Virus record (IMG/VR): IMGVR_UViG_3300042507_003714
Span: 1-22,766 of that record
Strand: one strand, 5' to 3'
DNA: 22,766 nucleotides
From: a virus
Shown here: positions 3,076 to 22,504 of the stretch, in pieces
How the letters are laid out: each line of letters starts with the position of its first letter
Numbering within the stretch: the first letter of the stretch is position 1
Notes under the pieces: generated by a model
Told to the model about the DNA's origin: nothing
Databases searched by the model: none
What the model saw: only the letters and a program-made list of their open reading frames with translations
Translations under genes and position numbers: made by a program

Positions 3076-4499
3076 TGGCAAAGAAAAAGATTCTCCTCCT
3101 ATCAGACGACTTACGTCTAACGAGCGGTATTGCAACCGTTTCTCGTGATATGGTTATAGGCACAGTTCACAAGTATGATTGGGTTCAAGTCGGTGCCGCT
3201 ATCAACCATCCAGAAAAAGGAAAGTTGTTAGATTTATCGGATAATGCTAAAGAACTAACTGGAGTTCAGGATGCATCTATTAAGATTTTATGCAATGATG
3301 GTTATGGTGATCCGATGTTGATTCGTCGTCTAATCGAAATGGAAAAACCAGATGCAATTCTCCATTTTACCGATCCACGTTTTTGGGATTGGTTGTATAA
3401 TATGGAGCATGAAATTCGCACACAAATTCCACTTCTTTATTTAAATATTTGGGATGGCGCTGGCTTGGTTTGGGATTCCCCAACAGATCCAATGTGGAAT
3501 AAAGATGCGTATGCTAGTTGTGATTTGCTTATGGCTATTTCAAAACAGACGTATGGTATAAACAAAAGAGTTTTGAATCGTGTTGGTGAATCTACACCAA
3601 ATCATAGAATAACTTATGTTCCTCACGGAATAAATACACAAATGTTTAAACCATTAAATTCAAATGACAAGGATTGGGATAACTTGGTATCTGAGTCTCA
3701 AAAGATTCGGAGAGATAATCCAAATAGATTTGTGGTGATGTGGAATAATAGAAATATACATCGAAAACATCCTGGTGACGTTATTCTTGCATATCGTCAT
3801 TTGTGTGAACTCGTAAATAAAAATGGCGGTAATGCAGTAGATGATTGTTTACTATTAATGCATACACAACCTGTTGACCCTAATGGTACAGATATACCTG
3901 CAGTTGTTACAGAATTGTGTAGTAACTTTAATGTTATGTTTAGTGATAAAATTCTTCCAGCCGAAGGTCTAAATATTCTGTATAACATTTCGGACGTAGT
4001 AGTTAATATGTCATCCAATGAAGGTTTTGGATTAGGAACAGCAGAGGCAATGTCATCTGGTACTCCAATTGTTGTAAACGTAACTGGTGGTCTACAAGAC
4101 CAATGTGGTTTCATCAATCCAAAGACGGGTAAATATTTTACAGAAGAAGATTATGTTGAAGTTCATAGCTTAAATAGAAAAGATCAATGGGGAAATTTAC
4201 AACATGGTGAATGGGTTAAACCAGTGTGGCCATCAAATCTTTCACTTCAAGGGTCAGTACCAACACCATATATTTTTGATGACCGTGCAGACTTCAGAGA
4301 CGTTGGTCAGGCACTATATGAATGGTTCAAGACTTCAAAAGAAGAAAGAGTTAAAGCTGGATTGAAAGGAAGAGATTTTATTTTAAGTTCGGATGTTGCT
4401 ATGAATCGCGAACATATGTGTGAACGTGTAATGAAAAGTATTGACGATTGTCTACAAAACTTTACACCAAGAAATCGTTTTGAACTACATTTAGTGTGA
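3075..4499 (+). CDS. GT-B glycosyltransferase, GT4-like
   Basis: A 474-residue glycosyltransferase, first gene of the sugar cluster. The C-terminal half carries the GT4 donor-binding motif E-x7-E at Glu316 and Glu324 (EGFGLGTAE), followed by SSGTPIVVNVTGG. An N-terminal Rossmann-like start (KKILLLSDDLRLTSGIATVS) supports a GT-B fold. No membrane segment is visible, so it should be cytosolic, moving a sugar from a nucleotide donor to an unknown acceptor. It starts after the 59-base gap with promoter-like words; AAAGG at 3064-3068 could be a weak ribosome-binding site. A second GT4-like gene follows after 7 bases, but it is not an obvious copy of this one. Donor and acceptor cannot be read from the sequence. 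Confidence 0.88.
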   Translation: MAKKKILLLSDDLRLTSGIATVSRDMVIGTVHKYDWVQVGAAINHPEKGKLLDLSDNAKELTGVQDASIKILCNDGYGDPMLIRRLIEMEKPDAILHFTDPRFWDWLYNMEHEIRTQIPLLYLNIWDGAGLVWDSPTDPMWNKDAYASCDLLMAISKQTYGINKRVLNRVGESTPNHRITYVPHGINTQMFKPLNSNDKDWDNLVSESQKIRRDNPNRFVVMWNNRNIHRKHPGDVILAYRHLCELVNKNGGNAVDDCLLLMHTQPVDPNGTDIPAVVTELCSNFNVMFSDKILPAEGLNILYNISDVVVNMSSNEGFGLGTAEAMSSGTPIVVNVTGGLQDQCGFINPKTGKYFTEEDYVEVHSLNRKDQWGNLQHGEWVKPVWPSNLSLQGSVPTPYIFDDRADFRDVGQALYEWFKTSKEERVKAGLKGRDFILSSDVAMNREHMCERVMKSIDDCLQNFTPRNRFELHLV

Positions 4500-4506
4500 G
4501 GATAAT

Positions 4507-5814
4507 ATGAGTTATAGACCAGAATTAGTTTTTTGTGGACCAGTTGCAACACGTTCAGGATATGGAGAACACGCCAGAGACCTATTGACATCTATTATGA
4601 ACATGGACAAGTTTAATATAAAGGTCATATCAATAAATTGGGGACAGACTCCAATGAATGCGCTTGACGCAAATAATCCCGAACACAAACGTATATTAGA
4701 TAGTATAATTCCAGGTCTTACGTCCCAACCGGAAGTTTGGATTCAATGTACTATTCCAAACGAATTTCAACCAGTTGGAAAGTATAATATCGGAATAACA
4801 GCAGGGATAGAGACCGACCTTTGTTCACCTGAATGGATTGATGGTTGTAATAAAATGAATCTTGTTATTGTTCCATCTAAACACGCTAAAGATGTTCTAT
4901 CAAGTACAAAATATGAAAAGAGAGATAAGACATCAGGCCAGACTGTTGGAAATTTAGAATTGACTACTCCTATAGAAATTTTACACGAAGGTGTAAGACT
5001 TGACATCTTCAATAAAAATCTACCTGCCGAAAAAACAATTACTGAAACTTTTGAAAAGATAAAAGAAGATTTTTGTTATCTATTTGTTGGCCATTGGTTA
5101 AAGGGAGACTTCGGGGAGGATAGAAAAGATTTGTCAGGATTGATTTATACTTTCTTGGAAACATTTGGCGATACTGAAAATCCCCCTGCACTTTTATTGA
5201 AAGCATCGAGTGGTGGATTTTCAATAAGTGACAGGAGTAGAACTTTTGAAAAAATTGATTTGATTAAACAAATGGTAAAGAAGAAAAATCTTCCAAACAT
5301 CTATCTCCTTCATGGTGATTTAACAGACCAAGAAATGAATACTCTTTACAATCATGAAAAAGTAAAAGCACTTGTTTCGTTCACAAAAGGTGAAGGTTAT
5401 GGTAGACCAATTGCTGAATTTATTACAACAGGAAAACCTGTAATTGTTTCTGGGTGGAGTGGCCACGTAGATTTTGTAAATCCTGTCTTTCACACATATC
5501 TTGAAGGTGAATTGAGAGAAATTCATGATAGCTCAGCTTGGGAAGGTGTATTAAATAAAGGTTCAAAATGGTTCACTGTGAATTATAAAAAAGCATCAGA
5601 TACTCTACATAAAGTTCACAAAAAATATAAAACATACCTCAATGAATCTAAAAAATCAGTACCCGAATTAGAGAAGAAGTGGTCTTATGAAGCTATGAGT
5701 GAAAAATTTGAACAACTACTTGATACACATCTTCCAAAATTCGCACAGAGAATAAGTCTCAACTTGCCTCAATTAAAGAAACTTCCAACCTTAAAGAAAG
5801 TTGAAACTGAATGA
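4507..5814 (+). CDS. GT-B glycosyltransferase, GT4-like (second)
   Basis: A 435-residue protein with the GT4 E-x7-E motif at Glu296 and Glu304 (EGYGRPIAE) followed by GKPVIVSGWSGHVDFV. The N-terminus (ELVFCGPVATRSGYGEHARD) has the glycine-rich acceptor-side loop often seen in GT4 enzymes, and residues near 190-200 (FVGHWLKGDFGEDRKD) match the linker before the donor domain. GAGGA at 4498-4502 gives a ribosome-binding site overlapping the previous stop. The last about 60 residues are lysine-rich and helical. It is likely a soluble sugar transferase; specificity unknown. It ends in an ATGA overlap with the next gene, indicating translational coupling. Confidence 0.88.
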   Translation: MSYRPELVFCGPVATRSGYGEHARDLLTSIMNMDKFNIKVISINWGQTPMNALDANNPEHKRILDSIIPGLTSQPEVWIQCTIPNEFQPVGKYNIGITAGIETDLCSPEWIDGCNKMNLVIVPSKHAKDVLSSTKYEKRDKTSGQTVGNLELTTPIEILHEGVRLDIFNKNLPAEKTITETFEKIKEDFCYLFVGHWLKGDFGEDRKDLSGLIYTFLETFGDTENPPALLLKASSGGFSISDRSRTFEKIDLIKQMVKKKNLPNIYLLHGDLTDQEMNTLYNHEKVKALVSFTKGEGYGRPIAEFITTGKPVIVSGWSGHVDFVNPVFHTYLEGELREIHDSSAWEGVLNKGSKWFTVNYKKASDTLHKVHKKYKTYLNESKKSVPELEKKWSYEAMSEKFEQLLDTHLPKFAQRISLNLPQLKKLPTLKKVETE

Positions 5815-6440
5815 TTTCTTATACAATAACGGCTTGCAACGAAGATAGAGAGTTGGATAAACTACTGAATGTTATTCGTGTGAATTTAAAAGACACGGAT
5901 GAGGTAGTTATCCAACTCGACCAAGACAAAGTAACTGATGAAGTTAGAAAAGTGTGTTCTATATATAAAGAAAGAATACCAATATTAAAAGTTACCGAAT
6001 TTTCTCTGAACAATGACTTTGCATCATTCAAGAATAATTTGAAAAGTCATTGTACGAAAGAATGGATATTCAATATTGATGCCGATGAGATACCTTCTGG
6101 ATTTCTGCTCGAAAATATCCACACTATTCTTGAATCAAATTCAGATTTAGATCTTTTAATTGTTCCGAGATGGAATGTTGTTGACGGCATAACGGAACGT
6201 CACATAAATTCTTGGCGTTGGAGACATGATGAATGGGGTAGAATAAATTGGCCAGATTGGCAAATGAGAATTTATAGAAACAAGGAATCCATATCTTGGA
6301 AGAATAAAGTACATGAAAAGATTGATGGATATGAAAAATACTCATTTCTTCCAGAGGATAAGGATTATTGTCTTTTCCATAACAAGACAATACAAAAACA
6401 AGAACAACAAAATAACTTTTATGAAAATATGGAGTTATAA
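5811..6440 (+). CDS. GT2-like glycosyltransferase (short, WaaE/KdtX-like)
   Basis: A 209-residue GT-A type protein. The start (ISYTITACNEDRELDKLL) matches the ACNE signature of GT2 enzymes related to WaaE/KdtX, and the metal-binding DXD-like motif is FNIDADEIP with Asp90 and Asp92. Downstream, WRWRHDEWGRINWPDWQMR and KVHEKIDGY resemble the NWPDxQxRI ... VHE segment common in this group. At 209 residues it is somewhat shorter than typical members. It starts in an ATGA overlap with the previous gene and its stop shares one base with the next start. Soluble; sugar and acceptor unknown. Confidence 0.82.
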   Translation: MISYTITACNEDRELDKLLNVIRVNLKDTDEVVIQLDQDKVTDEVRKVCSIYKERIPILKVTEFSLNNDFASFKNNLKSHCTKEWIFNIDADEIPSGFLLENIHTILESNSDLDLLIVPRWNVVDGITERHINSWRWRHDEWGRINWPDWQMRIYRNKESISWKNKVHEKIDGYEKYSFLPEDKDYCLFHNKTIQKQEQQNNFYENMEL

Positions 6441-7294
6441 TGAAAGATTTAATAGTCACAACTATAAGTAAAAACTATGTTTGGACAGACATAAATAATT
6501 GGATTTCTTCTTTAAAGAAAACTGGATATGACGGTGATATTCTTGTATTAGCATATAATTTTGAGGAAGAACACAAACACATTCTTAAATTAAAAGAATA
6601 TGGTGTAGAAGTATTAATTCCAAATAATACATTTAGAGGAAGTGAAGAATCTAATTTCGTTTGGCACTCTGGTGAAGTAAACCCATCAAACGCAAATAAA
6701 CTGATTCATAATGTTAGATTGTTTCACTTGTGGCAATATTTCACAGAAACCGAGATAGATTCAAAATATAATAGAATTATCTTCACAGATGGGAGAGATG
6801 TTTATTTTCAAACAAACCCGTCTGAATGGCTAGATAAAAATATGGTTTCTGAAATTCTTGTACCATCGGAAGGTGTTTTATATTCGGATGAGCCTTGGAA
6901 TACAAATAATGCATTAGTAAATTATGGACCTTATGTTTATGAATATCTATTGAAACAAAAGACAGTTTGTAATGTTGGGACATTTGCTTGTAAGAGTTCT
7001 ATATGCAAAGAGTTATGTCTTGTTCTTTATTTAATGTCTAACAACACAGGTCATGCAGACCAACCGTCTTTTAATATTTTGGTTCATACTTTACTCAATG
7101 ATAAATGTCAGTTTGTTAATTATGATAATTCATGGGCACTTCAAATTGGTGCGATAGTTAATGAATTGGAAAAACACACGTATATGGATTCAGACATAAT
7201 CTACTCAAAAGAATCAAAAGAACCATATTGTATAGTTCATCAATATGATAGAGTTCCACTACTAAAAAATAATGCAGATTTAAAATTTAAGTAA
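6440..7294 (+). CDS. Putative GT-A glycosyltransferase with TDGRD motif
   Basis: A 284-residue protein without an easily named family. The centre reads YNRIIFTDGRDVYFQTNP with Asp117 and Asp120, resembling the 'DxRDV.FQ.dP' motif of uncharacterised nucleotide-sugar transferases. The N-terminus (VTTISKNYVWTDINNWISSL) reads as a beta strand and helix of a GT-A fold, and NTGHADQPSFNIL near residue 205 could be the acceptor-side D-Q motif. All five arginine codons are AGA. It lies between a GT2-like and a GT7-like gene, one base from the latter, so a sugar-transfer role is likely by context and motif but not proven. Confidence 0.6.
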   Translation: MKDLIVTTISKNYVWTDINNWISSLKKTGYDGDILVLAYNFEEEHKHILKLKEYGVEVLIPNNTFRGSEESNFVWHSGEVNPSNANKLIHNVRLFHLWQYFTETEIDSKYNRIIFTDGRDVYFQTNPSEWLDKNMVSEILVPSEGVLYSDEPWNTNNALVNYGPYVYEYLLKQKTVCNVGTFACKSSICKELCLVLYLMSNNTGHADQPSFNILVHTLLNDKCQFVNYDNSWALQIGAIVNELEKHTYMDSDIIYSKESKEPYCIVHQYDRVPLLKNNADLKFK

Positions 7295-7295
7295 A

Positions 7296-8027
7296 ATGAA
7301 ATACTCAATAATAATACCATACAGAAATAGAGAAGAACATTTACAAATTCTTCTACCAAGATTACAGGAATTATTTAAAGAAGAATCATACGAAATCATT
7401 GTATCTGAACAAGACAATGACGATAACTTTCAAATCGCCTGTGTTGAGAACGTAGGTTACAATAATTCCAAAGGTGACATTATAATACTACACCAAGTGG
7501 ATTATTATCCACTCGATGATGTTTCATATGAAGTAGAAGATAATCCAGTATTGCCTGCAAGGCGTGGTGTATTTGTTGATAAAGATAATAAGACCGAACG
7601 AAGTTATTATGATATACCGGCTGGTTATCGTAAATGGTCAACTGAAATAGATGCCAACTTTTATGGTGGAGTTATTTGTATGAAACGAGAACACTACGAG
7701 CAGATCAATGGACTAAATCCATTGTACAAAGGTTGGGGGAATGAAGACGAGGATTTAAGAGAAAGATTTGTGTGGGCGGGAATACCAGTTAAAAGAAATG
7801 AACATGGAACTTTTTTATGTCTGTATCATGAAGACAATGGTGACATGAGTAAGAAGGATGAATCAGGACGTAAGGACTTTTTTGAGGGAAGAGATTACTT
7901 CTATGAAAAGGCATTCCATGATAGACATATTGGACACAAAAACTTATCGGCCGATGTTGAAGAGATGGAAACTGATATTGAAAATGTTCGTTGGATTAAA
8001 AGTAAAAACTACAAGGTTACTGAATGA
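7296..8027 (+). CDS. GT7-like (beta-1,4-galactosyltransferase family) glycosyltransferase
   Basis: A 243-residue GT-A enzyme with the landmarks of family GT7: IPYRNREEHL at residues 7-16, NVGYN at 52-56, HQVDYYPL at 66-73 (the DVD-like metal site), YGGVICMKREHYEQINGL at 123-140 and the catalytic-loop motif GWGNEDEDL at 146-154. In animal beta-1,4-galactosyltransferases the equivalent loop, GWGGEDDD, binds acceptor and provides the catalytic acid. Here it is cytosolic with no signal or membrane anchor. It likely transfers Gal, GalNAc or a similar sugar to a non-reducing GlcNAc- or Glc-like end; the exact sugar is inference. The next gene starts in an ATGA overlap. Confidence 0.85.
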   Translation: MKYSIIIPYRNREEHLQILLPRLQELFKEESYEIIVSEQDNDDNFQIACVENVGYNNSKGDIIILHQVDYYPLDDVSYEVEDNPVLPARRGVFVDKDNKTERSYYDIPAGYRKWSTEIDANFYGGVICMKREHYEQINGLNPLYKGWGNEDEDLRERFVWAGIPVKRNEHGTFLCLYHEDNGDMSKKDESGRKDFFEGRDYFYEKAFHDRHIGHKNLSADVEEMETDIENVRWIKSKNYKVTE

Positions 8028-8989
8028 GAAAATTAAATGTATATAGCTTTCACAGAAACATTGATTCTTTTAGATTTGATGCACATAACACCCACAACTT
8101 GATAGAGCAACTTAGTAAAAGATATGATGTGGTTTGGCACAACAAAGATGGGTCAGACCATTTTCATTATATCAATGACTGTGATGTATTAATAAATCAA
8201 GGATCAATTCTTATATTTGAATTTGATGATACAAAAGAATTTATGACATTTGATTTCGGAGATTCTCCATCATTGACTGTATCACTTTCAAAGTCAAGTA
8301 AGTTTATTGGTGCATCAATAGGACAATACAACAAAAAACTTTGGGATGATGTAATATCAAATCCAATTGTAAGAGAAAAGATAAAACCATCTGTATATCC
8401 AGAAACTTGTTGGAACTTTGGTATAGAAAATTTCTCACAGATTCAAGAGTATAGAAATTCAATTGATTTAGACACCCGTCTTTATTGGAGAGGTAGTACA
8501 TATAAGAATCATCCAAATCCACAATACAACGGAGTTAGAGACTCAATAGAACATATTTACAAAATGATGCCTGAGTTTTATTTTGGTTATCATCCAATAC
8601 CATTTGACAATTATATACAAGAGTCAATTGGATTTAAATTAGTTCTTGGATTTGGTGGGGGTGGTGGATATTTGTGTGGAGATTTTTGTTTTAGAGATAT
8701 TGAAATGTTTGGATTAGGAATACCAGTTATTCGACCTAAATTTGTTGCAGAAACAACAGACCCACTCATACCAAATGTTCACTACATTGCAGTTGACTGT
8801 GAATTTGATGATATGTTTAGATATAAAAATCCAGAACAATTGGCAAAAGATATAGTTAACAGATACAACGAGGTTATAAATGACGATGAACTTTTATCAA
8901 GTGTTGTAAATAACGCAAGAAATTGGTATATTAAAAATATCAGTTCTGAAAATATTACAAACAAAATTATGGAATCACTTGGCTTATGA
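8024..8989 (+). CDS. GT90/CAP10-like putative glycosyltransferase
   Basis: A 321-residue protein. The segment TRLYWRGSTY (151-160) and the later run FCFRDIEMFGLGIPVIRP (221-238) followed by an LA-x2-I-x2-R helix resemble the donor-binding half of GT90 (CAP10/LpsA-like) and some exostosin-like enzymes, where an Arg-Gly-S/N loop and an E..x.G..PVI motif are typical. A glycine run (211-215) lies just before. It begins in an ATGA overlap with the GT7-like gene and ends in one with the DUF6165 gene, so expression is tightly coupled. The family call rests on motif style, not close similarity. It could also be another GT-B subfamily. Confidence 0.55.
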   Translation: MRKLNVYSFHRNIDSFRFDAHNTHNLIEQLSKRYDVVWHNKDGSDHFHYINDCDVLINQGSILIFEFDDTKEFMTFDFGDSPSLTVSLSKSSKFIGASIGQYNKKLWDDVISNPIVREKIKPSVYPETCWNFGIENFSQIQEYRNSIDLDTRLYWRGSTYKNHPNPQYNGVRDSIEHIYKMMPEFYFGYHPIPFDNYIQESIGFKLVLGFGGGGGYLCGDFCFRDIEMFGLGIPVIRPKFVAETTDPLIPNVHYIAVDCEFDDMFRYKNPEQLAKDIVNRYNEVINDDELLSSVVNNARNWYIKNISSENITNKIMESLGL

Positions 8990-9363
8990 AAATAGAAGTA
9001 TCAAACGGTGAGATATTAGATAAGCTGTCTATACTCCAAATAAAAGCAACAAAGTTTAATGATATTTACAAACTCTCAAATGTAGAAAATGAGAGAAGAG
9101 CTCTTTTACCGATGTATGATTTAATAGCAACAACATCGGAGATACGTCAGAAGTTTCACGATCTTATTAATATCAACTCAAAGCTTTGGGACATCGAAGA
9201 CATGATTCGTATAAAAGAACAGAGAAATCAGTTTGATGAAGAATTTATTGAGTTAGCAAGATCCGTCTACAAGACTAATGATATACGTGCTGAGATCAAA
9301 CGAGATATAAACCTTTTATCAAATTCAGAGTTGATTGAAGAAAAATCATATGCAGAATACTAA
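8986..9363 (+). CDS. DUF6165 family protein
   Basis: A 125-residue helical protein that matches the DUF6165 pattern closely: SNGEILDKLSILQIKA at the start, LSNVENERRAL, then SKLWDIEDMIRIKEQR, then EFIELARSVYKTNDIR and a C-terminal EEKSY. The family's biochemical role is unknown to me; in bacteria it is found beside glycosyltransferases and lipopolysaccharide or capsule genes. It has no visible catalytic pattern and could be a scaffold or regulator for neighbouring transferases (inference). It overlaps the gene before by 4 bases and the GT9-like gene after by 14. Confidence 0.85.
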   Translation: MKIEVSNGEILDKLSILQIKATKFNDIYKLSNVENERRALLPMYDLIATTSEIRQKFHDLININSKLWDIEDMIRIKEQRNQFDEEFIELARSVYKTNDIRAEIKRDINLLSNSELIEEKSYAEY

Positions 9364-10258
9364 GTGTCTCATCGTAACTTATGGTTTCTTTGGTGACATT
9401 GCGTTTGCAAGTTCGATAGCCAAAAAGTTAAAAGAAGAAAACCAATTTGATAAAGTGGATTACCTAATAGGTTTTCCACAAATGCAAAGATTATTGGAGA
9501 ATAATCCGTACATAGATTTTGTTTACTCATCGGTGATACCATCACCAGTTCCAGTAAACAATTCAATAGAGTATAACTCTTATGATAAAGTAGTAAGACT
9601 ACAACAACTGTCTTTTACAGAGCCACCACCTTATGAGTTTCAAAAATTTGCTGGGGTTAGAAATCCAGATACATCATACAAGATTTATACTGAACCTAGC
9701 TATGACGAGATCGCCGAAGAATCAATACGAGAATTTTATTCTAACGGAAAAAAGACTTTGGCATTTCTTAGTAATTGGGAATCCAAATCATATGTTTTCA
9801 CTGAAGAAGAATACATTCAAGGAATAGATGTTCCTAATTTTGGATATGGTGGAAAACACAGGGATATAAACAAAATATTGAATGAACTAAAGAATTATTT
9901 TAACTTAATCGAAGTTGGAATGCCGTCTGATATTTCTCAATCCCAAACATCTATGATGGAAGATACGAATCAGAAATCAATTTTATTTGAGTGTTCTGTT
10001 ATGAAATACTGTGATGGATTTATTGGAACAGAAGGTGGTATGTGTAATCTTGCAGCTGGCGTTGGAGCAAGGACAATTATAACTGGTGACTTTGTTCATC
10101 AGTTATATGGATGGAATGGTGTTATAAAAAAAATAAATGAACCAAAATTAGGTCCAATCTATTATTTTGGAAATGAAAATCATACCGTTCTTAATCCATA
10201 CATGACAGATACGGAAGTATCAAACTCCATAATACAATTATTATTTAAAGGAAAATAA
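9350..10258 (+). CDS. GT9-like (heptosyltransferase fold) glycosyltransferase
   Basis: A 302-residue protein from ATG 9350, with GAAG at 9337-9340 as a possible ribosome-binding site; an in-frame TTG at 9335 would add five residues and is less likely. The N-terminus has GFFGDIAFASSIAKKLKE, equivalent to the GD.l..tP....L loop of GT9 enzymes, followed by VDYLIGFPQMQRLLENNPYI. The C-terminal half has FIGTEGGMCNLAAGVGA (about 224-240), equivalent to the D/T-GG..HLA.A.G donor motif. GT9 enzymes transfer heptose or related sugars in lipopolysaccharide core synthesis. Here the His of the HLA motif is replaced by Asn (CNLA). Substrate unknown. Confidence 0.72.
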   Translation: MQNTKCLIVTYGFFGDIAFASSIAKKLKEENQFDKVDYLIGFPQMQRLLENNPYIDFVYSSVIPSPVPVNNSIEYNSYDKVVRLQQLSFTEPPPYEFQKFAGVRNPDTSYKIYTEPSYDEIAEESIREFYSNGKKTLAFLSNWESKSYVFTEEEYIQGIDVPNFGYGGKHRDINKILNELKNYFNLIEVGMPSDISQSQTSMMEDTNQKSILFECSVMKYCDGFIGTEGGMCNLAAGVGARTIITGDFVHQLYGWNGVIKKINEPKLGPIYYFGNENHTVLNPYMTDTEVSNSIIQLLFKGK

Positions 10259-10261
10259 AAT

Positions 10262-11005
10262 ATGAAACAGTTATCTATTTGTATGACACATATAAACAGA
10301 AAACGTCAACTACTGAATACTTTACAAAGTATACAAGACCAAGACGTTAAAGATTTAATCGAGGTTATAATTGTGGATGATGTCAGTGAAACCCCACTTT
10401 CCTACTCCGATGTTCAAAAATTTGATTTGGATATAAAGTTAGTAACAATATCTACAAAAAATAAATGGTGGGTAAACCCAGTAGTTGCATTTAATACCGC
10501 ATTTCATTTTATACACGGTGAACGTGTAATAATTCAAAATGCAGAATGTCTTCATGGTACAAATATTGTCAAGTATGTAATTGATAATTTGAAAAAAAAT
10601 GAGTATATTGCAATGTTAGCTCTTGCACTATCTAAAACTTCATCTGAAAAAATAACGGAAAAAACTCAGCCAGATGATATAGATACGAATGGGGCGATAT
10701 GGTATTGTCATCCGGAACACAGACCTGATCCTTTAAATTTCTGCGCAGCAATGTTTACAGAAGATTTAGTTAAAATTGGAGGATTTGATAACAGGTATGC
10801 TGAAGGAATGTGGTCAGACGATACTGCATTTTTATCAACGCTAAAAAAACATGGAATAGAAACTAGAATTGAAGATAGTCAATTAGTTTTTCATCAATGG
10901 CACGAGGATTTATGGCATTCAAATCCAAATATGCCATCACTTGTTGCAAAAAATAGAGTTTTAGTAGACGCACTAAATAAGGAGATAAACGATGGCATAT
11001 ACTGA
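10262..11005 (+). CDS. GT2 glycosyltransferase with QNAE in place of DXD
   Basis: A 247-residue GT-A enzyme: SICMTHINRKRQLLNTLQSI at the start, VDDVS at 38-42 for nucleotide binding, and FCAAMFTEDLVKIGGFD then WSDDTAFL as the acceptor region with its catalytic aspartates. The usual metal-binding DXD is replaced by IQNAECLH (91-98), a variant I have seen in some GT2 branches, where a single acidic residue remains. A metal-weak or metal-independent mechanism is possible but inferred. The gene starts 3 bases after the previous stop and overlaps the methyltransferase-like gene by 14 bases. Confidence 0.85.
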   Translation: MKQLSICMTHINRKRQLLNTLQSIQDQDVKDLIEVIIVDDVSETPLSYSDVQKFDLDIKLVTISTKNKWWVNPVVAFNTAFHFIHGERVIIQNAECLHGTNIVKYVIDNLKKNEYIAMLALALSKTSSEKITEKTQPDDIDTNGAIWYCHPEHRPDPLNFCAAMFTEDLVKIGGFDNRYAEGMWSDDTAFLSTLKKHGIETRIEDSQLVFHQWHEDLWHSNPNMPSLVAKNRVLVDALNKEINDGIY

Positions 11006-11522
11006 TTGGATTGATATTGTAGAAAAAACAATACAAAATAAAGATAGAATAAATTTTCTAGAGTTTGGTCTTGGGGAAGGAACTGAATACTTAGTAGATA
11101 AGTTTAAATTCGTTTACTCTCATGAATTGATTGATGAAAGAGATTCAACTCTCATAGAATGGTATAATCAATCATCTGAAAAATTGAAAGATAAGAAGAA
11201 TTGGAAAAGTGAGGTAGTATTTTGGAAGGACATTAATTTTATAGATTACGACCCAAATCTACCAAAGAAACTATTGGATAGAATTGATGAATTATTTTCA
11301 GAATATAAATTTGATGGTGTTTTAGTTGATGGTGGTTATCATGTAAGAGGAGATATTGCAAATTATGTTTTGAATAAATTTAAACCAAAGTACGTTGTAA
11401 TACATGATACAAATTATAATTACGAAGTAGATGGTTATCTCAGAATAATTCTTCCGGATATATATGAAACTGTTGAATACAGAGTTGGAGAAGGAACTCA
11501 CATATTTGTAAAGAAAGGCTAA
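10992..11522 (+). CDS. Class I SAM-dependent methyltransferase-like protein
   Basis: A 176-residue protein with an excellent ribosome-binding site, AAGGAG at 10979-10984, 7 bases before ATG 10992. Residues 22-34 (FLEFGLGEGTEYL) resemble methyltransferase motif I with the acidic-G.G.GT loop for S-adenosylmethionine. FDGVLVDGGYHVRGD (107-121) and YVVIHDTNYN (134-143) resemble the D-G.H...D and HD segments of Methyltransf_24-type O-methyltransferases. It could cap or decorate a sugar hydroxyl of the glycan made by its neighbours (inference). It is smaller than a typical enzyme of about 200-220 residues, so loss of activity is possible. Confidence 0.65.
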   Translation: MAYTDWIDIVEKTIQNKDRINFLEFGLGEGTEYLVDKFKFVYSHELIDERDSTLIEWYNQSSEKLKDKKNWKSEVVFWKDINFIDYDPNLPKKLLDRIDELFSEYKFDGVLVDGGYHVRGDIANYVLNKFKPKYVVIHDTNYNYEVDGYLRIILPDIYETVEYRVGEGTHIFVKKG

Positions 11523-11526
11523 CAAA

Positions 11527-12468
11527 ATGAGAATTTTAATTACAGGTGTTTTGGGAACAGTAGGTTCTATTTTAAAAGAAAAACTAATTCACAAAGGTCA
11601 CTCGGTTTTTGGTATAGATTTATATCACTCTCTCGGAGAAACTGGATTTTCACAAACTGTTAGTTCCGAACAACAGACGTATAATAGATGTGATATTGGA
11701 GAATATCATCAAATAGAAAGAGTTATTGAAAAATTCGGTCCATTTGATTTAGTCTATAATTGTGCCGCAGAATTTGGTAGATGGAACGGTGAAGATTATT
11801 ATGAACAACTTTGGAAATCAAATGCAATAGGTTTAAAAAATATCATTCGATTACAGGAAAAACACAAATTCAAATTGGTTCATTTTTCTAGTTCTGAGGT
11901 ATATGGTGATTATGACGGTATTATGACAGAATCTATTATGGACGAAATAGAAATAAAACAGATGAATGATTATGCAATTTCAAAATGGGCAAACGAAATG
12001 CAAATACGAAATTCCAGAATCATGTATGGTACAGAAACTGTTATTGTCAGATTATTTAATACATACGGTCCAGGAGAAAACTATCACCCATACCGTTCAG
12101 TCAACTGTAAGTTCTGTTACCATGCACTTAATAATCTTCCTATAACGGTTTTTACAGGACATTACAGGTCAAGCACTTATATAGATGATGCAGTTAGTGC
12201 AATATCAAATATCTCTGATAATTTTATAGACGGAAGAATTTATAACATCGGTAGCAATGAATTTCATTCAATAGAAAAATTGGCAGAATTGATATGGGAT
12301 TATGTGGGTGCTGATAAATCTTTAGTACAGTATAAGGAGTCTGAGGTTTTAACAACAAAAACAAAAACACCAGACATTTCACTTTCAGTAAATGAACTTG
12401 GTTACAAATCAACTGTAATATTAGAAGACGGTGTTAAAAAAACAATTGATTGGATGAGAACAGTCTAA
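11527..12468 (+). CDS. NAD-dependent sugar epimerase/dehydratase (extended SDR) 1
   Basis: A 313-residue extended SDR enzyme. GVLGTVG at 7-13 is the GxxGxxG dinucleotide loop, SSSEVYG at 121-127 holds the active-site Ser, and Tyr149-x3-Lys153 (YAISK) is the catalytic pair. NTYGPGE and the YIDDAV segment near residue 220 are typical of sugar-nucleotide epimerases and dehydratases. It should act on an NDP-sugar using bound NAD to supply a donor for the surrounding transferases. The exact reaction (4-epimerase, 4,6-dehydratase or decarboxylase) cannot be assigned by eye. Only one base separates it from the next gene. Confidence 0.9.
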   Translation: MRILITGVLGTVGSILKEKLIHKGHSVFGIDLYHSLGETGFSQTVSSEQQTYNRCDIGEYHQIERVIEKFGPFDLVYNCAAEFGRWNGEDYYEQLWKSNAIGLKNIIRLQEKHKFKLVHFSSSEVYGDYDGIMTESIMDEIEIKQMNDYAISKWANEMQIRNSRIMYGTETVIVRLFNTYGPGENYHPYRSVNCKFCYHALNNLPITVFTGHYRSSTYIDDAVSAISNISDNFIDGRIYNIGSNEFHSIEKLAELIWDYVGADKSLVQYKESEVLTTKTKTPDISLSVNELGYKSTVILEDGVKKTIDWMRTV

Positions 12469-12469
12469 T

Positions 12470-13171
12470 ATGAAAATCATTTATAGAATATCAGATGTTG
12501 GTTACAAAAAAGTAAAACCAAAATATATCAATAATGAATCTTGTCTGAATAATGCAATATCAGTCTTTAATCCAAATGACCACGATTGGTTTATTATTGC
12601 AGATAATACATCCGATGAAACAAACAAAATGATTTCAAAGTATGTCCAGTCGGAATCAATTTACTACACATCAATCAAAAGTGGTGCCGGTACATTTAAC
12701 TATGCTCTTGATATGGCATTGAAGTTTGATAAAAATGATGTTGTCTATTTCTTAGAAAATGACTATATTCATAAAACAAATTCAGATGTTATCTTACTTG
12801 AAGGAATAAATGCTGGTGGAGATTATATCAGTCTATACGATCATCCAGACAAATACATACCATCGAGTCGTGGTGGTAATCAGTTCATAGATGATGATGG
12901 CGGCGAGATAACAAAAGTTTATCTAACCAAATCATCTCACTGGAAGATTACTAACAGTACAACGATGACCTTTGCTTCAAAGGTAAATACTCTTATGGAA
13001 GATGAAGATATACTTAGAAAATGGACTAACATGGGGAGTTACCCAAGAGATTTTGATATGTTCATTGAACTAAGAAATAAAGGAAAGGTTTTATTAACGT
13101 CGATACCTGGATATTCTACACACGGAGAATCTGCTTGGTTATCGCCATTAACTAATTGGGAACTCATATGA
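12470..13171 (+). CDS. GT2-like putative glycosyltransferase with ENDY motif
   Basis: A 233-residue protein in the sugar cluster. WFIIADNTSDET near residue 40 corresponds to the GT2 'DDGS.D' nucleotide site, and VVYFLENDYIH (91-101) takes the place of DXD. Residues after this (YISLYDHPDKY, RGGNQFIDDDGG) are distinctive, and the C-terminus STHGESAWLSPLTNWE looks like an acceptor loop. It resembles uncharacterised GT-A proteins in phage genomes, but I cannot name the family. It begins one base after the epimerase and ends in an ATGA overlap with a clearer GT2 gene, so a role in the same glycan is likely. Confidence 0.6.
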   Translation: MKIIYRISDVGYKKVKPKYINNESCLNNAISVFNPNDHDWFIIADNTSDETNKMISKYVQSESIYYTSIKSGAGTFNYALDMALKFDKNDVVYFLENDYIHKTNSDVILLEGINAGGDYISLYDHPDKYIPSSRGGNQFIDDDGGEITKVYLTKSSHWKITNSTTMTFASKVNTLMEDEDILRKWTNMGSYPRDFDMFIELRNKGKVLLTSIPGYSTHGESAWLSPLTNWELI

Positions 13172-13956
13172 TTTCAGTTGTAATACCATCATACAGAAAT
13201 CCAAAATGCTTGGATGTTTGTTTGAACTCTGCTCTCGAAAATCAATCAAATGATAATGAGATTATAGTTGTCCTCGACGGGTTTGCTGATGAGTCAAATC
13301 ACATTGTTGAAAAGTATCGTGATAGAGTTTCATTCATACCGATTGAAGTAAATTCAGGTATGCAATACGCTTTAAATGTGGGAGTCTATCAATCTTCAAA
13401 CGAATGGATATTGATTGTAAATGACGATAATGTATTTCCAAAAGATTGGGATATTCTTCTCGAACAAGATTCATCTGAACGTCTAATCATAACTCCAAAT
13501 CAAATTGAAAGGACACCAAGTATATTCAATTTTGTTACTAAAGATTTTGGTGGCATAGATAATTTTGATTTTCAATCGTATACAAATGAAGAACCAAATT
13601 ACAGAGAAAATTCTCTTACAAATGATGGAGAGATATTTCCATTCTTCATGCAGAAAAAATACTATATGGCTTGTGGTGGGTTCGATACAATTTATGATTC
13701 TCCGTTTATTTGTGATTGGGATTTCTTTTTAAAGCTAGAACTCATTGGTTTGAAGTTTGTAAGAAGTAGAAAGTTAAACTTCTATCACTTTGGAAGTATG
13801 GCAACAAAGAATGGAAATGAACGGGATAGATTTGTTCAAAGTGAAAGAGATGCATTTGACTCATTTAAATTTAAGTGGGGATTTAACCCAATACGAAATA
13901 TAGACAATAGTCATTCACCTAAAAATTATTATGTAATGGGAATTAAGTATGAATAA
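13168..13956 (+). CDS. GT2 glycosyltransferase
   Basis: A 262-residue GT2 enzyme from ATG 13168 (ATGA overlap with the previous stop); an upstream in-frame TTG at 13156 would add four residues and is less likely. The N-terminus ISVVIPSYRNPKCLDVCL is a textbook GT2 start. IIVVLDGFADES provides the nucleotide Asp, NDDN at 85-88 is the metal site, and GGFDTIYDSPFICDWDFFLK near residues 170-190 is the acceptor region with the catalytic Asp. No membrane segment is present, unlike polysaccharide synthases. It overlaps the following epimerase by 8 bases. Sugar specificity unknown. Confidence 0.9.
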   Translation: MISVVIPSYRNPKCLDVCLNSALENQSNDNEIIVVLDGFADESNHIVEKYRDRVSFIPIEVNSGMQYALNVGVYQSSNEWILIVNDDNVFPKDWDILLEQDSSERLIITPNQIERTPSIFNFVTKDFGGIDNFDFQSYTNEEPNYRENSLTNDGEIFPFFMQKKYYMACGGFDTIYDSPFICDWDFFLKLELIGLKFVRSRKLNFYHFGSMATKNGNERDRFVQSERDAFDSFKFKWGFNPIRNIDNSHSPKNYYVMGIKYE

Positions 13957-14947
13957 AAAAGTATTGATTACAGGAGTCGCAGGTCTTCTTGGCGCGAGAC
14001 TCGCTGATTGGATTATAGAGAATAAACCAGAATATGAAGTTGTTGGTGTTGATAATCTTGATGGTGGTTATTTAGATAATGTTCATCCGAGATGTGATTT
14101 TTATAAATCAGATTGTACAGATACAATTGAGATGGATAAGATATTTTCTACACATAAGTTTGAGTATGTATTTCATTTTGCTGCATATGCTGCAGAGGGA
14201 TTATCTCCATTCATCCGTTGTTTTAATTATACAAACAATCTACTCGCCACCGCAAACATTGTTAATAACTGTATAAGACATGACATCAAACGTCTTGTAT
14301 TTACATCCACTATGGCAGTGTATGGTCATGGCAATCCTCCGTTCGATGAGTCACATCAACCTGCACCTATTGACCCATATGGTGTTGCAAAGTTTGCCTG
14401 TGAGCAAGATATTCAAATCGCAGGAGAACAACATGGTTTGGACTGGTGTATTATTAGACCGCATAATGTGTATGGTATCAAACAAAATATTTGGGACAAG
14501 TATCGTAACGTTCTTGGTATTTGGATGTACCAACACCTAAATGGAAAGCCAATGACAATATATGGCGATGGTACACAAACACGAGCATTTAGTTATATTG
14601 ATGATTGCCTTGAACCACTGTGGAAAGCAGCAGTAGATGAAAAGACTTCAAAGGAAATTATAAATCTTGGTGGTACTAAGTATCATAGTATTAAAGAAGC
14701 AAATGAAATATTGATAGAAGTTATTGGTGATGGTGAGTTCATTCACATGGAACCACGTCATGAAGTTAAAGATGCCCACCCAACATGGAAAAAATCAGTT
14801 GAACTTCTCAATTATAACGATACAACATCTCTTAATGATGGTCTAACTGAAATGTGGGAATGGGCAAAACAACAACCAATGAGAGAACAGTTCATTTGGG
14901 AAAACTATGAACTAGACAAAGGTATTTATTCATTCTGGAGAAAATAA
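13949..14947 (+). CDS. NAD-dependent sugar epimerase (extended SDR) 2
   Basis: A 332-residue extended SDR enzyme, UDP-glucose 4-epimerase-like. GVAGLLG at 9-15 is the dinucleotide loop, GVDNLDGG the NAD-ribose Asp region, TSTMAVYG at 119-126 the active-site Ser/Thr strand, and Tyr144-x3-Lys148 (YGVAK) the catalytic pair. RPHNVYG and YGDGTQTRAFSYIDDCL are typical of NDP-sugar epimerases. Length and motif order are complete. It overlaps the GT2 gene by 8 bases and is followed 3 bases later by a UDP-sugar dehydrogenase. The two together could feed galactose- and uronic-acid-type donors to the cluster (inference). Confidence 0.92.
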   Translation: MNKKVLITGVAGLLGARLADWIIENKPEYEVVGVDNLDGGYLDNVHPRCDFYKSDCTDTIEMDKIFSTHKFEYVFHFAAYAAEGLSPFIRCFNYTNNLLATANIVNNCIRHDIKRLVFTSTMAVYGHGNPPFDESHQPAPIDPYGVAKFACEQDIQIAGEQHGLDWCIIRPHNVYGIKQNIWDKYRNVLGIWMYQHLNGKPMTIYGDGTQTRAFSYIDDCLEPLWKAAVDEKTSKEIINLGGTKYHSIKEANEILIEVIGDGEFIHMEPRHEVKDAHPTWKKSVELLNYNDTTSLNDGLTEMWEWAKQQPMREQFIWENYELDKGIYSFWRK

Positions 14948-14950
14948 GTT

Positions 14951-15787
14951 ATGGTAAATGTTATAGGAATTGTTGGTCAAGGTTTTGTTGGTAGTGCAGT
15001 TAAACAAGGAATGGAGAATCATTTTAAGATAGAGACGTTCGATATTCTTCCTGAAAAATCCACAACAAATAGTTTAGAAGAACTTTATAATAAAACCGAT
15101 TTGATATTTGTGTGTTTACCAACTCCGATGAAGAAGTCGGGGGAATGCGATACAAAGATAGTAGATTCTGTTTTTTCTCAACTCAATCAGATGGGTAATG
15201 GAAAAATTGTTGTATTGAAATCAACAGTACCACCAGGAACTTGTAAGTTATTTCAAGAAAAATATCCGAATATAAATCTTATTTTTAATCCAGAGTTTTT
15301 AACAGAAGCAAACGCTATAATGGACTTCATTAACCAAGATAGAATAGTTTTGGGTGGTAATAATGGATTAACAGAGACGGCCGATATGTTCAGAAGGGCA
15401 TTTCCATTTATTCCAATAGTACAGACAAGTTCAGATGTTGCGGAGATGGTTAAGTACGTTGCTAACTGTTTCCTATCCGTTAAGGTTGTATTCGCAAATC
15501 AATTGTTTGATGTTTGTTCTTCTGCTGGTATCAATTATGATGAGGTCGTCGGTATATCAAAATTAGATAAACGGCTTGGATTAAGTCATTGGAAAGTACC
15601 AGGACCAGATGGAGATAGAGGTTATGGTGGTCATTGTTTTCCGAAAGATATGTCTGCGTTCTTAAAGTTTGGTGAAAATAATGGAGTAAATCTTTCTTTG
15701 ATAAAAGAATCGATTGACTACAACAATATAGTCCGTAAAAACAGAGATTGGGAAACTATGATAGGAAGAGCTGTATCAGATGAATAA
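14951..15787 (+). CDS. UDP-glucose/GDP-mannose 6-dehydrogenase family, short form
   Basis: A 278-residue member of the UDP-sugar 6-dehydrogenase family. GQGFVG at 9-14 binds NAD, FVCLPTP (53-59) and STVPPGT (91-97) line the NAD site, NPEFLTEANA (113-122) begins the central domain, EMVKYVANCF (165-174) holds the conserved Lys168, and GYGGHCFPKD (224-233) holds catalytic Cys229. Full enzymes (about 390-450 residues) continue with a C-terminal UDP-binding domain of roughly 100 residues; here the protein stops soon after the central helices. All catalytic residues are present. It would oxidise a UDP-hexose to a uronic acid, or be altered in specificity. It closes the sugar cluster before a 57-base gap. 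Confidence 0.88.
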   Translation: MVNVIGIVGQGFVGSAVKQGMENHFKIETFDILPEKSTTNSLEELYNKTDLIFVCLPTPMKKSGECDTKIVDSVFSQLNQMGNGKIVVLKSTVPPGTCKLFQEKYPNINLIFNPEFLTEANAIMDFINQDRIVLGGNNGLTETADMFRRAFPFIPIVQTSSDVAEMVKYVANCFLSVKVVFANQLFDVCSSAGINYDEVVGISKLDKRLGLSHWKVPGPDGDRGYGGHCFPKDMSAFLKFGENNGVNLSLIKESIDYNNIVRKNRDWETMIGRAVSDE

Positions 15788-19381: not shown

Positions 19382-20029
19382 ATGATACAACCAATAGTTC
19401 TGTATAGTTCAAATCACAACATTCTACGAACAAAGACAAAGCAATCCAATATTCAAAATGACCGAGAAAACTTGGAAAAATTAATCCAAGATATGAAAGA
19501 CACTCTCGAATCGGTTGGTGGTCTTGGTCTTGCCGCTAATCAACTTGGAAGAGACGAATCAGTTTGTCTTGTAAAGTTGGATAACAATATCATAACGATG
19601 ATAAATCCACAGATAGTAAGTAGTAATGGAGAAAAGAAAACATCAATCGAAGGTTGTCTTTCACTTCCTGATATTACTTCAAAGGTAGAACGTGATGAAA
19701 CAATATCGGTAAAGTTTATCAATCCAGATACCGAATGGTCTGAACAAGAAATGGAAATTGATTTTCCAAACTCTGTTATTGTTCAACACGAAATAGACCA
19801 TCTAAACGGTAAGTTGATGATTGATTATTTAACTCCACTACAAAAGAACTTGATAAACACCAAACTGAAAAAGGTTTCTCGTGGAAATGCGGATATTAAT
19901 TATGTTGGAATGGTTTGGCGAGACTCTCAAAGGAGTTGGTCTTTGGTTGGTACAATGGTAAAATTGATGGAATTTTATTCACAACATCAAGAAAAAGAAG
20001 AAAATAAAGAGGTGGCTACTGAAAAATAA
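19382..20029 (+). CDS. def: Peptide deformylase
   Basis: A 215-residue peptide deformylase with all three family motifs: GLGLAANQ (47-54, Gln54), EGCLS (90-94, metal ligand Cys92) and QHEIDH (135-140, ligands His136 and His140, catalytic Glu137). It removes the formyl group from the first Met of new proteins in the cytosol, using Fe2+ or similar. Phage-coded deformylases are known from marine T4-like phages, where they are thought to help turnover of host proteins. The C-terminal about 45 residues (after NADINYVG) are an extension rich in Glu/Lys. GGTGATAA precedes the start. The end of the gene forms one side of a hairpin with its stop in the loop. Confidence 0.95.
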   Translation: MIQPIVLYSSNHNILRTKTKQSNIQNDRENLEKLIQDMKDTLESVGGLGLAANQLGRDESVCLVKLDNNIITMINPQIVSSNGEKKTSIEGCLSLPDITSKVERDETISVKFINPDTEWSEQEMEIDFPNSVIVQHEIDHLNGKLMIDYLTPLQKNLINTKLKKVSRGNADINYVGMVWRDSQRSWSLVGTMVKLMEFYSQHQEKEENKEVATEK

Positions 20030-20107: not shown

Positions 20108-22021
20108 ATGAAAAAATTTATACTCGCCCTTGGCTTATTAGTTTCAACAATTACAGGGGCAGTAGCCCAAAATGGTTTAGGAGAGGTGTTACCGGCACCA
20201 GATGCTTCTAAACCATACGTGCTTGTAGACACGTCGTTTATCGTAGGTTCTTATCTTCAAGGTTCAACAACCTTATATCTCCACTACAATTACACCGGCA
20301 CAGACAAAGTAAAGGCTATCCAAACTCGTATCTATTTTGATACAGCAGCTTTTTCTGGTGTAACTGCAACTACTGGCCCAACTATCGAAAATGAATCGGT
20401 TTACTTCCGTTCAAACAGAGTTGCAAACTATCTCACACTCACAGTATCTTATACGGGAAACAATGGAAACTGGTCATTCCCTTCTGGTGCTTGGGTAAAG
20501 TTGGTCTTCACACACGGTCCACGTTTCTATGATGTTGACCCTGACTCAATCAAACTCATCGGTGCACCGTCATACTCTAACAGAGCAACAATCAACAGTG
20601 GTACTGACGTAACGTTGGGTATGGTAAACTATGGTGGAAGATTTATTCGTCCTCCGTTTGTCATGCCTCTTTATGTTTTCAACCAAGATGATTCTCCACT
20701 CGGTGATGTGAAGGTTCAATTCTTCCATCGTAAAAAAGCAAATACTGCCGCTAATTGGGATTCAGTTGCAACATATCTCACAGATTCAGCAACGGGCAAA
20801 GTAACACTTCGTACAAACGTTGATACATCTATCTCTTTTGTAAGAATTCGTATCAATGGTGATACCGCAAAAGCTGGTGATGCTGTAAACGTAACAGACG
20901 CTTACAAGATAAATGAAGTTGTTCTTGAAACAGATACCCTTTCAAAATTCCAATACTTTGCAGCTGACATCAACAAGAATAACATCTATACAATATCAGA
21001 CGCGTTTCTTGTATTCAATCGTATAGCTCAAAGTGCTACTTTTTGGAATGACTTTTTACCAGGAACAAAAGACCTGATGTTATTCCGTGTTGGTGAAAAG
21101 CAATCAATCTATGCCGCACCTGGCACAAACTTCACAACAACAATTACACCAACACACGATATGGTTGACACACTCAATGGTGAGGATAGTGTTGCATATT
21201 GGGGTGTTCTTCTTGGTGATGCAAACGGAACAGGTCTTACAAACATCGGAATGATTGTTGGTAAGAATACAGATGACATCGAATCACCTGAGTACGTTCG
21301 TGATGCCCGTGTTTCATATGACAAGGCAAAAGAAAAGGTATCGTTTGAATTACCACGTCTAACTATATCAGCTGAATCAGAAGTAACTCTTCCAGTAACA
21401 CTTGTAACAAATGGTGTTGATGTTGGTTCACTTCAATTCGGTATTGTTTATGATACAACACTTCTTGAATTCAAGAACATAGACGTTTCTGAAAAAGTAA
21501 AAGGTTGGACATCATACATCCTTGTAAAAGGAAACCACGTTGAGTGGGGTGGATATGAAACATCAAACAAACAAGATGTTATCCGTTCAAACGCAGAAGT
21601 TTTCAACCTAACATTCAAAGTCAAGAAAACAGGATGGACTGAATCACCTGTCCGTGTTGTTACAAAGGCAGTTGGTAACTCAAAGGCAGAAGACGTAAAC
21701 ATTGACGAATCAAAAGCCGATGGTAAGATTGTTTACATGAGAGCACCAATTGAATTTGATTTTGATAACGTATTCGTTCCATACCCTGTTCCATTTGCAA
21801 ACTCACTTACAATTGAAACAATGCCACTTATGATGGGTAATGAATTTTCAGTTGAAGTTATAAACCAATTAGGACAGACTGTGTTTACAGAATCACAGAA
21901 TGCATATACAGGCGGAACACAAAGAATGTATATTGATATGTCAGCCCAACCAAAGGGTGTTTATTTTGTAAGATATAAGAATGGAAATACAGTTTCGGTA
22001 AAACAAGTTGTTAAGAATTAA
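20108..22021 (+). CDS. Secreted protein with T9SS (Por) C-terminal sorting domain
   Basis: A 637-residue exported protein. Residues 1-20 are a signal peptide (KK, hydrophobic core, AVA before Gln21). Residues about 30-150 form a beta-rich cohesin-like domain. Residues 287-307 (DINKNNIYTISDAFLVFNRI) resemble one dockerin calcium loop and helix, with a second weaker acidic loop GDANGTG near 371. Residues about 423-540 look like a second cohesin-like domain (VTLPVTL, GSLQFGIVYDTTLLEF). Residues about 555-637 are a type A T9SS sorting domain: YPVPFANSL, a VEVINQLGQTVF strand, IDMSAQPKGVYFVRY and the basic end VKQVVKN. T9SS exists in Bacteroidota and relatives, so the host probably has it. It has a good ribosome-binding site (GAGGA) and no paralog in the window. 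Binding partner unknown. Confidence 0.9.
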   Translation: MKKFILALGLLVSTITGAVAQNGLGEVLPAPDASKPYVLVDTSFIVGSYLQGSTTLYLHYNYTGTDKVKAIQTRIYFDTAAFSGVTATTGPTIENESVYFRSNRVANYLTLTVSYTGNNGNWSFPSGAWVKLVFTHGPRFYDVDPDSIKLIGAPSYSNRATINSGTDVTLGMVNYGGRFIRPPFVMPLYVFNQDDSPLGDVKVQFFHRKKANTAANWDSVATYLTDSATGKVTLRTNVDTSISFVRIRINGDTAKAGDAVNVTDAYKINEVVLETDTLSKFQYFAADINKNNIYTISDAFLVFNRIAQSATFWNDFLPGTKDLMLFRVGEKQSIYAAPGTNFTTTITPTHDMVDTLNGEDSVAYWGVLLGDANGTGLTNIGMIVGKNTDDIESPEYVRDARVSYDKAKEKVSFELPRLTISAESEVTLPVTLVTNGVDVGSLQFGIVYDTTLLEFKNIDVSEKVKGWTSYILVKGNHVEWGGYETSNKQDVIRSNAEVFNLTFKVKKTGWTESPVRVVTKAVGNSKAEDVNIDESKADGKIVYMRAPIEFDFDNVFVPYPVPFANSLTIETMPLMMGNEFSVEVINQLGQTVFTESQNAYTGGTQRMYIDMSAQPKGVYFVRYKNGNTVSVKQVVKN

Positions 22022-22036
22022 TTTTAGGAGTTACAC

Positions 22037-22504
22037 ATGGCGAAAAAGAAGAGTGTAGATTTAGAGGAACTGCAAGAGTCTGTTACGGAGGATTTAAAAA
22101 ACAAGAAGTTTGCGTTCACTCTTCCGTGGATTATCGGTTTGTTTTCAGCAGTATCTACTGTTATCGGTGGTTACTGGTATGTGAAAACAGAATTTGAAGG
22201 CATCATTGGTGATGTCAAGGCAATGAAAGAAGCAGAAGCCCCTTCTCGTAAAGAGTTCGATGAACTCAAAGAGGCAGTTGTTTTCTTGAATCAACAGGTG
22301 ACACAAGTTGGAACAAGTGGTGGTAACGGTGGTGCCGTTCCTCCAATGATTCTCCAACTCAACAACACCAACAATATCAAGCAAGAGCAAGGTAAGGGTG
22401 GTGGAGTTCAAATGCCATCTGCACCAGCAGCTCAACCAGCGGCAGAAACACCGGCAGCAAAGCCAACTGTCAATGACCGTCTTTCACGATTCAAGAAACA
22501 ATAA
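22037..22504 (+). CDS. Single-pass membrane protein with Ala/Pro-rich tail
   Basis: A 155-residue protein with AGGAG at 22026-22030. Residues 1-26 are charged and cytosolic in appearance, about 27-48 (FTLPWIIGLFSAVSTVIGGY) form one membrane helix, 50-92 are a charged helical or coiled-coil part (KAMKEAEAPSRKEFDELKEA), 93-130 a Gly/Asn-rich stretch, and the rest Ala/Pro-rich with a basic end LSRFKKQ. The layout could fit an inner-membrane spanin-like or structural anchor, but no lipobox partner is visible and the family is not recognised. It lies 14 bases before a second membrane-protein gene and 15 bases after the secreted protein. Confidence 0.8.
   Translation: MAKKKSVDLEELQESVTEDLKNKKFAFTLPWIIGLFSAVSTVIGGYWYVKTEFEGIIGDVKAMKEAEAPSRKEFDELKEAVVFLNQQVTQVGTSGGNGGAVPPMILQLNNTNNIKQEQGKGGGVQMPSAPAAQPAAETPAAKPTVNDRLSRFKKQ

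Follow-up and report, generated by a model that had tools for sequence, protein, structure and literature searches.

The locus examined here raises the question of whether a phage encodes cargo for the type IX secretion system (T9SS) of its host and, if so, what such a protein would do at the cell surface. The window, meaning the whole stretch of DNA analysed, is the 22.8-kb IMG/VR record IMGVR_UViG_3300042507_003714 (22,766 nt). An earlier interpretation made from the letters alone (the sequence-only reading) had reported an ORF of 637 residues that begins with a signal peptide and ends in a T9SS sorting domain of type A, and this ORF was recovered at exactly 20108-22021 (+) and at that length. 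The proposal that it is phage-encoded T9SS cargo stands on sequence and fold, but it overlooked a cohesin, an X-module/dockerin-like region and a conserved multi-gene cassette. We consider that the protein, referred to here as the anchor, is probably the anchor or scaffold component of a surface-display cassette that is encoded by T4-like phages of Bacteroidota and conserved among them.

Phage origin and gene content of the window

Genes outside the anchor were used to assign the contig, and the following were located in the window:

175-696 (+): T4 gp62-type clamp loader small subunit, a phage marker (phrog_225, E 7.4e-9)
22037-22504 (+): membrane protein, predicted to have a single TM segment, the counterpart by position of gp16 of Flavobacterium phage immuto
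22519-22764 (+): truncated membrane-protein ORF at the contig end

Directly upstream of the clamp-loader small subunit, a near-identical sister record (G001/L146) has the AAA+ gene of a clamp loader together with a DNA methyltransferase, so that the AAA+ gene and the small subunit reproduce the layout of the T4 gp44-gp62 pair. The window also encodes a PD-(D/E)XK exonuclease. Of 20 long relatives, 16 have a match to a gp23-type capsid gene, which scores above the cut-off in 15 of them; the window itself is a fragment without a capsid gene. From the clamp-loader pair and the gp23 of its relatives, the contig is assigned to a T4-like phage. The anchor gene occurs in the same context on a second contig, where the protein is 100% identical across the first 427 residues, and on another independent contig, where it is 86% identical. 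Because of the clamp-loader pair and these two independent contigs, the window was not taken to be a bacterial chromosome or a chimera, and the phage origin originally proposed holds. When the full window was used as a megablast query, no phage record matched.

The ORF at 22037 gave a weak profile match to gp16 in an N/Q-rich motif region, and no relatives of it were found by which the contig could be extended. The contig stops before the CsgG-like and adhesin genes described below, and their presence in the window phage is deduced from relatives; judging by gene order on related contigs, the rest of the cassette (gp17-gp19 and the adhesin) presumably lies beyond the contig end.

Several other genes were recorded. 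About 12 kb of the window (3075-15787) holds many sugar-related genes, including glycosyltransferases of several families, two NAD-dependent epimerases and one UDP-glucose/GDP-mannose dehydrogenase; these suggest surface-glycan or DNA/virion glycosylation and may be linked to the lectin cassette. A phage-encoded IMP dehydrogenase (1957-3015; PF00478, E 1e-107) is likely an auxiliary metabolic gene, and a peptide deformylase (19382-20029; PF01327, E 5e-38) lies immediately upstream of the T9SS gene.

Domain layout of the anchor

The anchor was divided into the following parts, all on the + strand:

20108-22021 (+): predicted secreted anchor or scaffold protein, 637 aa, equivalent to immuto gp14 and gp15 fused
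20108-20170 (+): predicted Sec signal peptide, residues 1-21, MKKFILALGLLVSTITGAVAQ (sequence inspection)
20195-20653 (+): N-terminal beta-rich domain, residues about 30-182 (AF2 secondary structure)
20654-20857 (+): X-module-like (transthyretin/CarboxypepD_reg-like) domain, residues about 183-250, common to phage adhesins
20843-21061 (+): dockerin-like module, residues about 246-318
20966-21001 (+): single conserved F-hand loop D287-x-N289...D298 within the dockerin-like module
21215-21235 (+): conserved GDANGTG element, residues 370-376 (alignments)
21359-21730 (+): cohesin domain, residues 418-541 (PF00963, fold match and family profile)
21782-22018 (+): type A T9SS C-terminal sorting domain, residues 559-637 (PF18962, TIGR04183 and fold)

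By inspection, the start of the protein has the features of a Sec-type signal peptide (an n-region KK, a hydrophobic core and an AVAQ cleavage-like end), and signal-peptide-like starts are kept in the listed homologues, in agreement with the signal peptide first proposed. The AlphaFold model has a modest overall pLDDT of 63, with good values in the tail (83-94 over most of it). No PHROGs family matched the anchor. Between two close relatives dN/dS was 0.15 for the whole anchor protein and 0.25 for the tail, which indicates purifying selection. The possibility that the N-terminal domain is a second cohesin was rejected, as an hhalign profile comparison with the cohesin domain was not significant. 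With both an X-module/dockerin-like region and a cohesin, the predicted domains of the protein suggest an anchor or scaffold more than a simple effector.

The T9SS sorting domain

The C-terminal end of the anchor (YPVPF...KGVYFVRYKNGNTVSVKQVVKN) was compared with the two models of the T9SS tail, and both matches were significant: PF18962 (Por_Secre_tail) aligned to residues 559-634 at E 6.2e-10 (39.7 bits against a cut-off of 27) and TIGR04183 (NCBIfam, type A T9SS) scored E 1.9e-8 (34.2 bits against a cut-off of 23). When the specificity of PF18962 was checked in control genomes, it matched in 1/14 and exceeded its cut-off in 0/14. The modelled tail matched 8glk_D, the solved C-terminal domain (CTD) of the F. 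johnsoniae T9SS substrate NucA, with a TM-score of 0.80 on the target, and by this match is predicted to adopt the seven-strand Ig-like CTD fold. The assignment of a type A sorting domain is thus borne out by two sequence models and a fold match.

The tail is also conserved. It is retained in 24/24 of the fused homologues tested, by PF18962, and in 26/26 members of the cohesin/tail alignment, although homologue identity to the window protein drops to 26-30%. Each of 20 long phage contigs (99-309 kb) carried exactly one PF18962 domain, always within a frame of the length typical for the anchor gene. No phage-encoded PorV was found above cut-off in these 20 contigs, which is consistent with use of the host's T9SS. 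The SprA model had no match in any contig or in the controls and is hence uninformative on phage-encoded SprA. Together, sequence and modelled fold strongly support the anchor as predicted phage-encoded cargo for the host T9SS.

Relatives and distribution

A tblastn search of 50,697 phage records returned full-length homologues only in four records of Flavobacterium phage immuto, at about 30% identity. Immuto, the only cultured relative, is a Baltic Sea phage whose host is Flavobacterium sp. LMO8, and with such a host the suggestion that the anchor gives a clue to a Bacteroidota host holds for the window phage. Homologues of the anchor stand beside the same neighbours in immuto and in dozens of IMG/VR contigs; the IMG/VR set comprised 47 loci with the cohesin/tail part and 21 with the N-terminal part. 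When 84,980 bacterial and archaeal species genomes were scanned, the one match was a 10.8-kb MAG contig carrying the gp13-gp14-gp15 trio, so the anchor family appears phage-restricted at this sensitivity. That contig (JAAEPJ010000011.1), filed as a bacterial MAG, is probably a misbinned phage contig.

In immuto the anchor is split into gp14, which corresponds to window residues 1-377, and gp15, which holds the cohesin and the T9SS tail; both proteins begin with a signal-peptide-like sequence. In split relatives gp14 terminates two residues past the GDANGTG element. The division falls at the GDANGTGxN point in the immuto group (for example at 12680-12700 of locus L003) and in other split loci, and at many of them stop and start are one base apart (TAA T ATG), the second half beginning with its own signal-peptide-like start. 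At another locus (L031, 7951-8679) the gp15 frame is broken after 136 aa while the DNA match goes on, through either a sequencing error or a real loss.

This distribution bears on the simplest alternative, in which a host T9SS gene was acquired by chance and has no phage function. Unrelated T9SS cargo does occur in other phages (Cryophage, PMC7468147). Against chance capture, dozens of phages that have diverged from one another retain the anchor beside a constant set of neighbours, it is under purifying selection, and its sole match in the 84,980 genomes is the 10.8-kb MAG contig with the phage trio. Conservation and synteny already contradict this explanation, and we regard it as very improbable.

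A conserved gene cassette

Gene calling and purpose-built HMMs placed the anchor in a cassette that comprises, in immuto numbering, the adhesin gp13, gp14, gp15, the small TM protein gp16, gp17, gp18 and gp19. At least 562 and at least 537 gp17 loci were confirmed in two scans of 600 candidates each. Linkage was counted on the best-scoring gp17 loci out of more than 500, with 89 distinct gp17 proteins kept, and more distant gp17 loci may be linked differently. Where the contig extended 3.5 kb or more upstream of gp17, gp14 and gp15 were present in every case (73/73 distinct best-scoring gp17 loci; 49 fused, 24 split). Where both flanks were present (n=53 best-scoring loci), the adhesin was found in 52/53, gp18 in 53/53, gp19 in 53/53 and gp16 in 46/53. 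gp18 combines a signal-peptide-like start, a Ser/Gly-rich linker and a barrel-like C-terminus with a final aromatic residue in many members; the linker differs strongly in length between phages, and one locus (L119, 4844-7054) has a very long Ser-Asn-Gly-Thr repeat linker. Signal-peptide-like starts are present on gp13, gp14, gp15, gp17, gp18 and gp19, and in immuto the cassette lies among replication genes at 10-16 kb, with gp23 distant at 127 kb.

These last two observations weigh on the possibility that the cassette proteins decorate the heads or tails of new virions, where they would bind glycans. Phage virions often carry lectin, LamG and Ig-like domains (PMC7824862), and immuto virion proteomics was not found in the literature searched. 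Signal-peptide-like starts on six of the proteins fit poorly with cytoplasmic virion assembly, however, and the immuto cassette keeps company with replication genes far from gp23; we therefore judge virion decoration improbable.

The front part of gp13 varies between phages: it can be a C-type lectin, a lectin that contains a LamG insert, PA14 or GEVED, and further fronts have no confident family assignment. All gp13 proteins end in one X-module/dockerin-like module of about 165 residues, which is also found inside the window protein (residues about 183-318). At one locus (L012, 6522-8798) two adhesin genes, one with a C-type lectin front and one with an unassigned front, stand side by side upstream of the anchor. 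DGR diversification of the C-type lectins was considered and rejected, as no reverse transcriptase was found in 20 long contigs.

Cohesin and dockerin-like modules

The anchor cohesin was identified by PF00963 (E 1.4e-11, 45.2 bits against a cut-off of 24.1), and this part of the AlphaFold model matched the cohesins 2vn5 (TM 0.68) and 4ums. The family profile of the cohesin/tail part likewise matched the cohesins 1g1k and 2vn5, as well as T9SS CTDs, and a cohesin was found in 17/24 fused homologues.

For the X-module/dockerin-like region, the five best PDB matches of the gp13 end-module profile were all X-module/dockerin ends of cellulosomal scaffoldins (2b59_B at E 7.4e-5, then 3kcp, 5g5d, 4wi0 and 4u3s), and the profile of the dockerin-like module matched dockerin 4uyp_B at E 0.0014. 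Dockerin_1 matched 14/24 anchor homologues at E <= 0.1 (best 2.2e-4); none was listed for the window ORF, and single adhesins scored 12-15 bits, below the Pfam cut-off of 22.9. The anchor and adhesin versions aligned to each other by hhalign at E 1.9e-25 over the X-module and dockerin region and at E 1.6e-19 over the dockerin-like module. One F-hand loop is conserved (D, N and D at positions 1, 3 and 12), and the first calcium loop of the adhesins looks degenerate.

From this domain content we infer a cohesin-dockerin pairing between anchor and adhesin. In the fused form, where dockerin-like and cohesin parts lie on one chain, the two could also bind each other. The X/dockerin part of the adhesin showed no co-variation with the cohesin beyond the gp17 control (62/500 permutations reached the observed value), which counts against tight pairing. 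Adhesins only 34-38% identical in the X/dockerin part adjoin cohesins that are 93-97% identical, and such near-identical cohesins beside quite different adhesins indicate that the anchor stays constant while the adhesin is swapped.

CsgG-like partners

gp17 was compared with known proteins by sequence and by fold. PF03783 (CsgG) matched 1/16 gp17 members (E 1.9e-4), and a sequence search of the PDB with gp17 gave nothing relevant. The top 17 PDB fold matches of the gp17 model (pLDDT 73) were all CsgG (best E 1.6e-7, prob 1.00), and on this model gp17 is a CsgG-fold protein. Several gp17 proteins match the gp19 profile, and gp19 thus looks like a smaller relative of gp17. None of the CsgG-system companions curlin, CsgE and CsgF was seen with gp17.

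A CsgG-like outer-membrane ring, a barrel and inner-membrane proteins could alternatively act as a spanin or pore in a module for envelope disruption or lysis, with the T9SS protein serving only for positioning. Such a module would accommodate gp16 and the window ORF at 22037, which look like inner-membrane proteins, a spanin-like PHROG match (E 0.021) and the membrane-protein ORF, possibly holin-like, that comes next in the window (22519). The spanin match is not significant, no endolysin is annotated beside the immuto cassette, and known lysis systems make no use of exchangeable lectin, PA14 or GEVED adhesins or of a T9SS tail; we judge a lysis function improbable.

Proposed mechanism and purpose

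The explanation that we favour, surface display, builds on the signal-peptide-like start, the X-module/dockerin-like region, the cohesin, the T9SS tail and the gene linkage, all read from sequences and structural models; secretion, docking and purpose are what we infer. During infection, the anchor would cross the inner membrane via Sec, and the host T9SS translocon would then export the tail-bearing protein via PorV. The tail would be removed, and the protein would stay fixed to the outer surface or be partly released from it, in keeping with type A CTDs of F. johnsoniae, which are reported to direct static surface anchoring or release via PorV (PMC12618676). The cohesin of the anchor would hold the dockerin-like ends of the adhesin, such that the infected cell shows a glycan-binding protein chosen by the phage. 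For the tail-less adhesin, two routes across the outer membrane are conceivable: via the CsgG-like protein and its partners, or carried along with the T9SS cargo.

The most likely purpose would be either to mask or alter surface glycans, which would shut out competing phages and keep released progeny from adsorbing again, or to attach the virocell to cells or particles. These purposes are hypothetical, as are those first suggested from the letters (receptor blocking, holding cells together, attachment to virions). A more specific version, put forward tentatively, is a virus-encoded, cellulosome-like scaffold in which a T9SS-exported cohesin anchor receives exchangeable dockerin-tagged lectins delivered through a phage CsgG-like outer-membrane channel, which would remodel the surface of the infected cell.

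Cargo and adhesin might instead be shed as a soluble glycan-binding complex, a decoy or aggregation factor that is not displayed on the cell. The tail is the sole anchor present, and type A CTD cargo of F. johnsoniae can be released too (PMC12618676). A cohesin-plus-tail architecture would be odd for a purely soluble product, and the conserved, linked membrane and outer-membrane set (gp16-gp18) points to the envelope; we consider shedding unlikely.

Relation to known systems and significance

Phage-encoded T9SS cargo has already been reported in Cryophage (Bellas et al. 2020, PMC7468147), the one such precedent found in the literature searched. As here, the Cryophage cargo (PMC7468147) bears T9SS sorting domains of type A and is presumed to use the host T9SS. 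It consists of three variable proteins (an endoglucanase, a GH39 and a PA14 protein), whereas here there is one constant cohesin-bearing anchor, within the same multi-gene cassette across T4-like phages, one of them cultured. Cellulosome anchoring shares with this system a cohesin on the anchor, an X-module with a dockerin-like module on the partners, and modular binding domains; the phage system differs in being virus-encoded and anchored by a T9SS tail, in carrying adhesins rather than cellulases, and in having a partly degenerate dockerin-like module with docking that is putative. gp17 shares the predicted fold of curli CsgG, but has very low sequence similarity to it and is tied to a T9SS anchor and adhesins. 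In marine phages, csgG reportedly ranks with the most abundant genes for 'virulence' or adherence (PMC7003362, PMC11309003). F. johnsoniae RemA, a surface-displayed lectin, has a type A CTD like the anchor (PMC12618676), whereas in the phages lectin and T9SS tail sit on separate proteins.

No description of the cassette or of a phage cohesin-dockerin system was found in the literature searched, which lay mostly outside subscription journals and preprints. What appears to be new is the conserved, virus-encoded arrangement of known parts; phage T9SS cargo itself is known.

Bacteroidota are major polymer degraders in water and gut. If the proposed mechanism is true, lytic phages would have a conserved route to rebuild the Bacteroidota surface by borrowing the phylum-specific T9SS, and the cassette could account for some of the abundant and puzzling csgG genes of marine phages. 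The T9SS anchor also serves as a host clue for anonymous metagenomic phages, and the cultured pair of immuto and Flavobacterium LMO8 makes export, docking and effects on superinfection directly testable.
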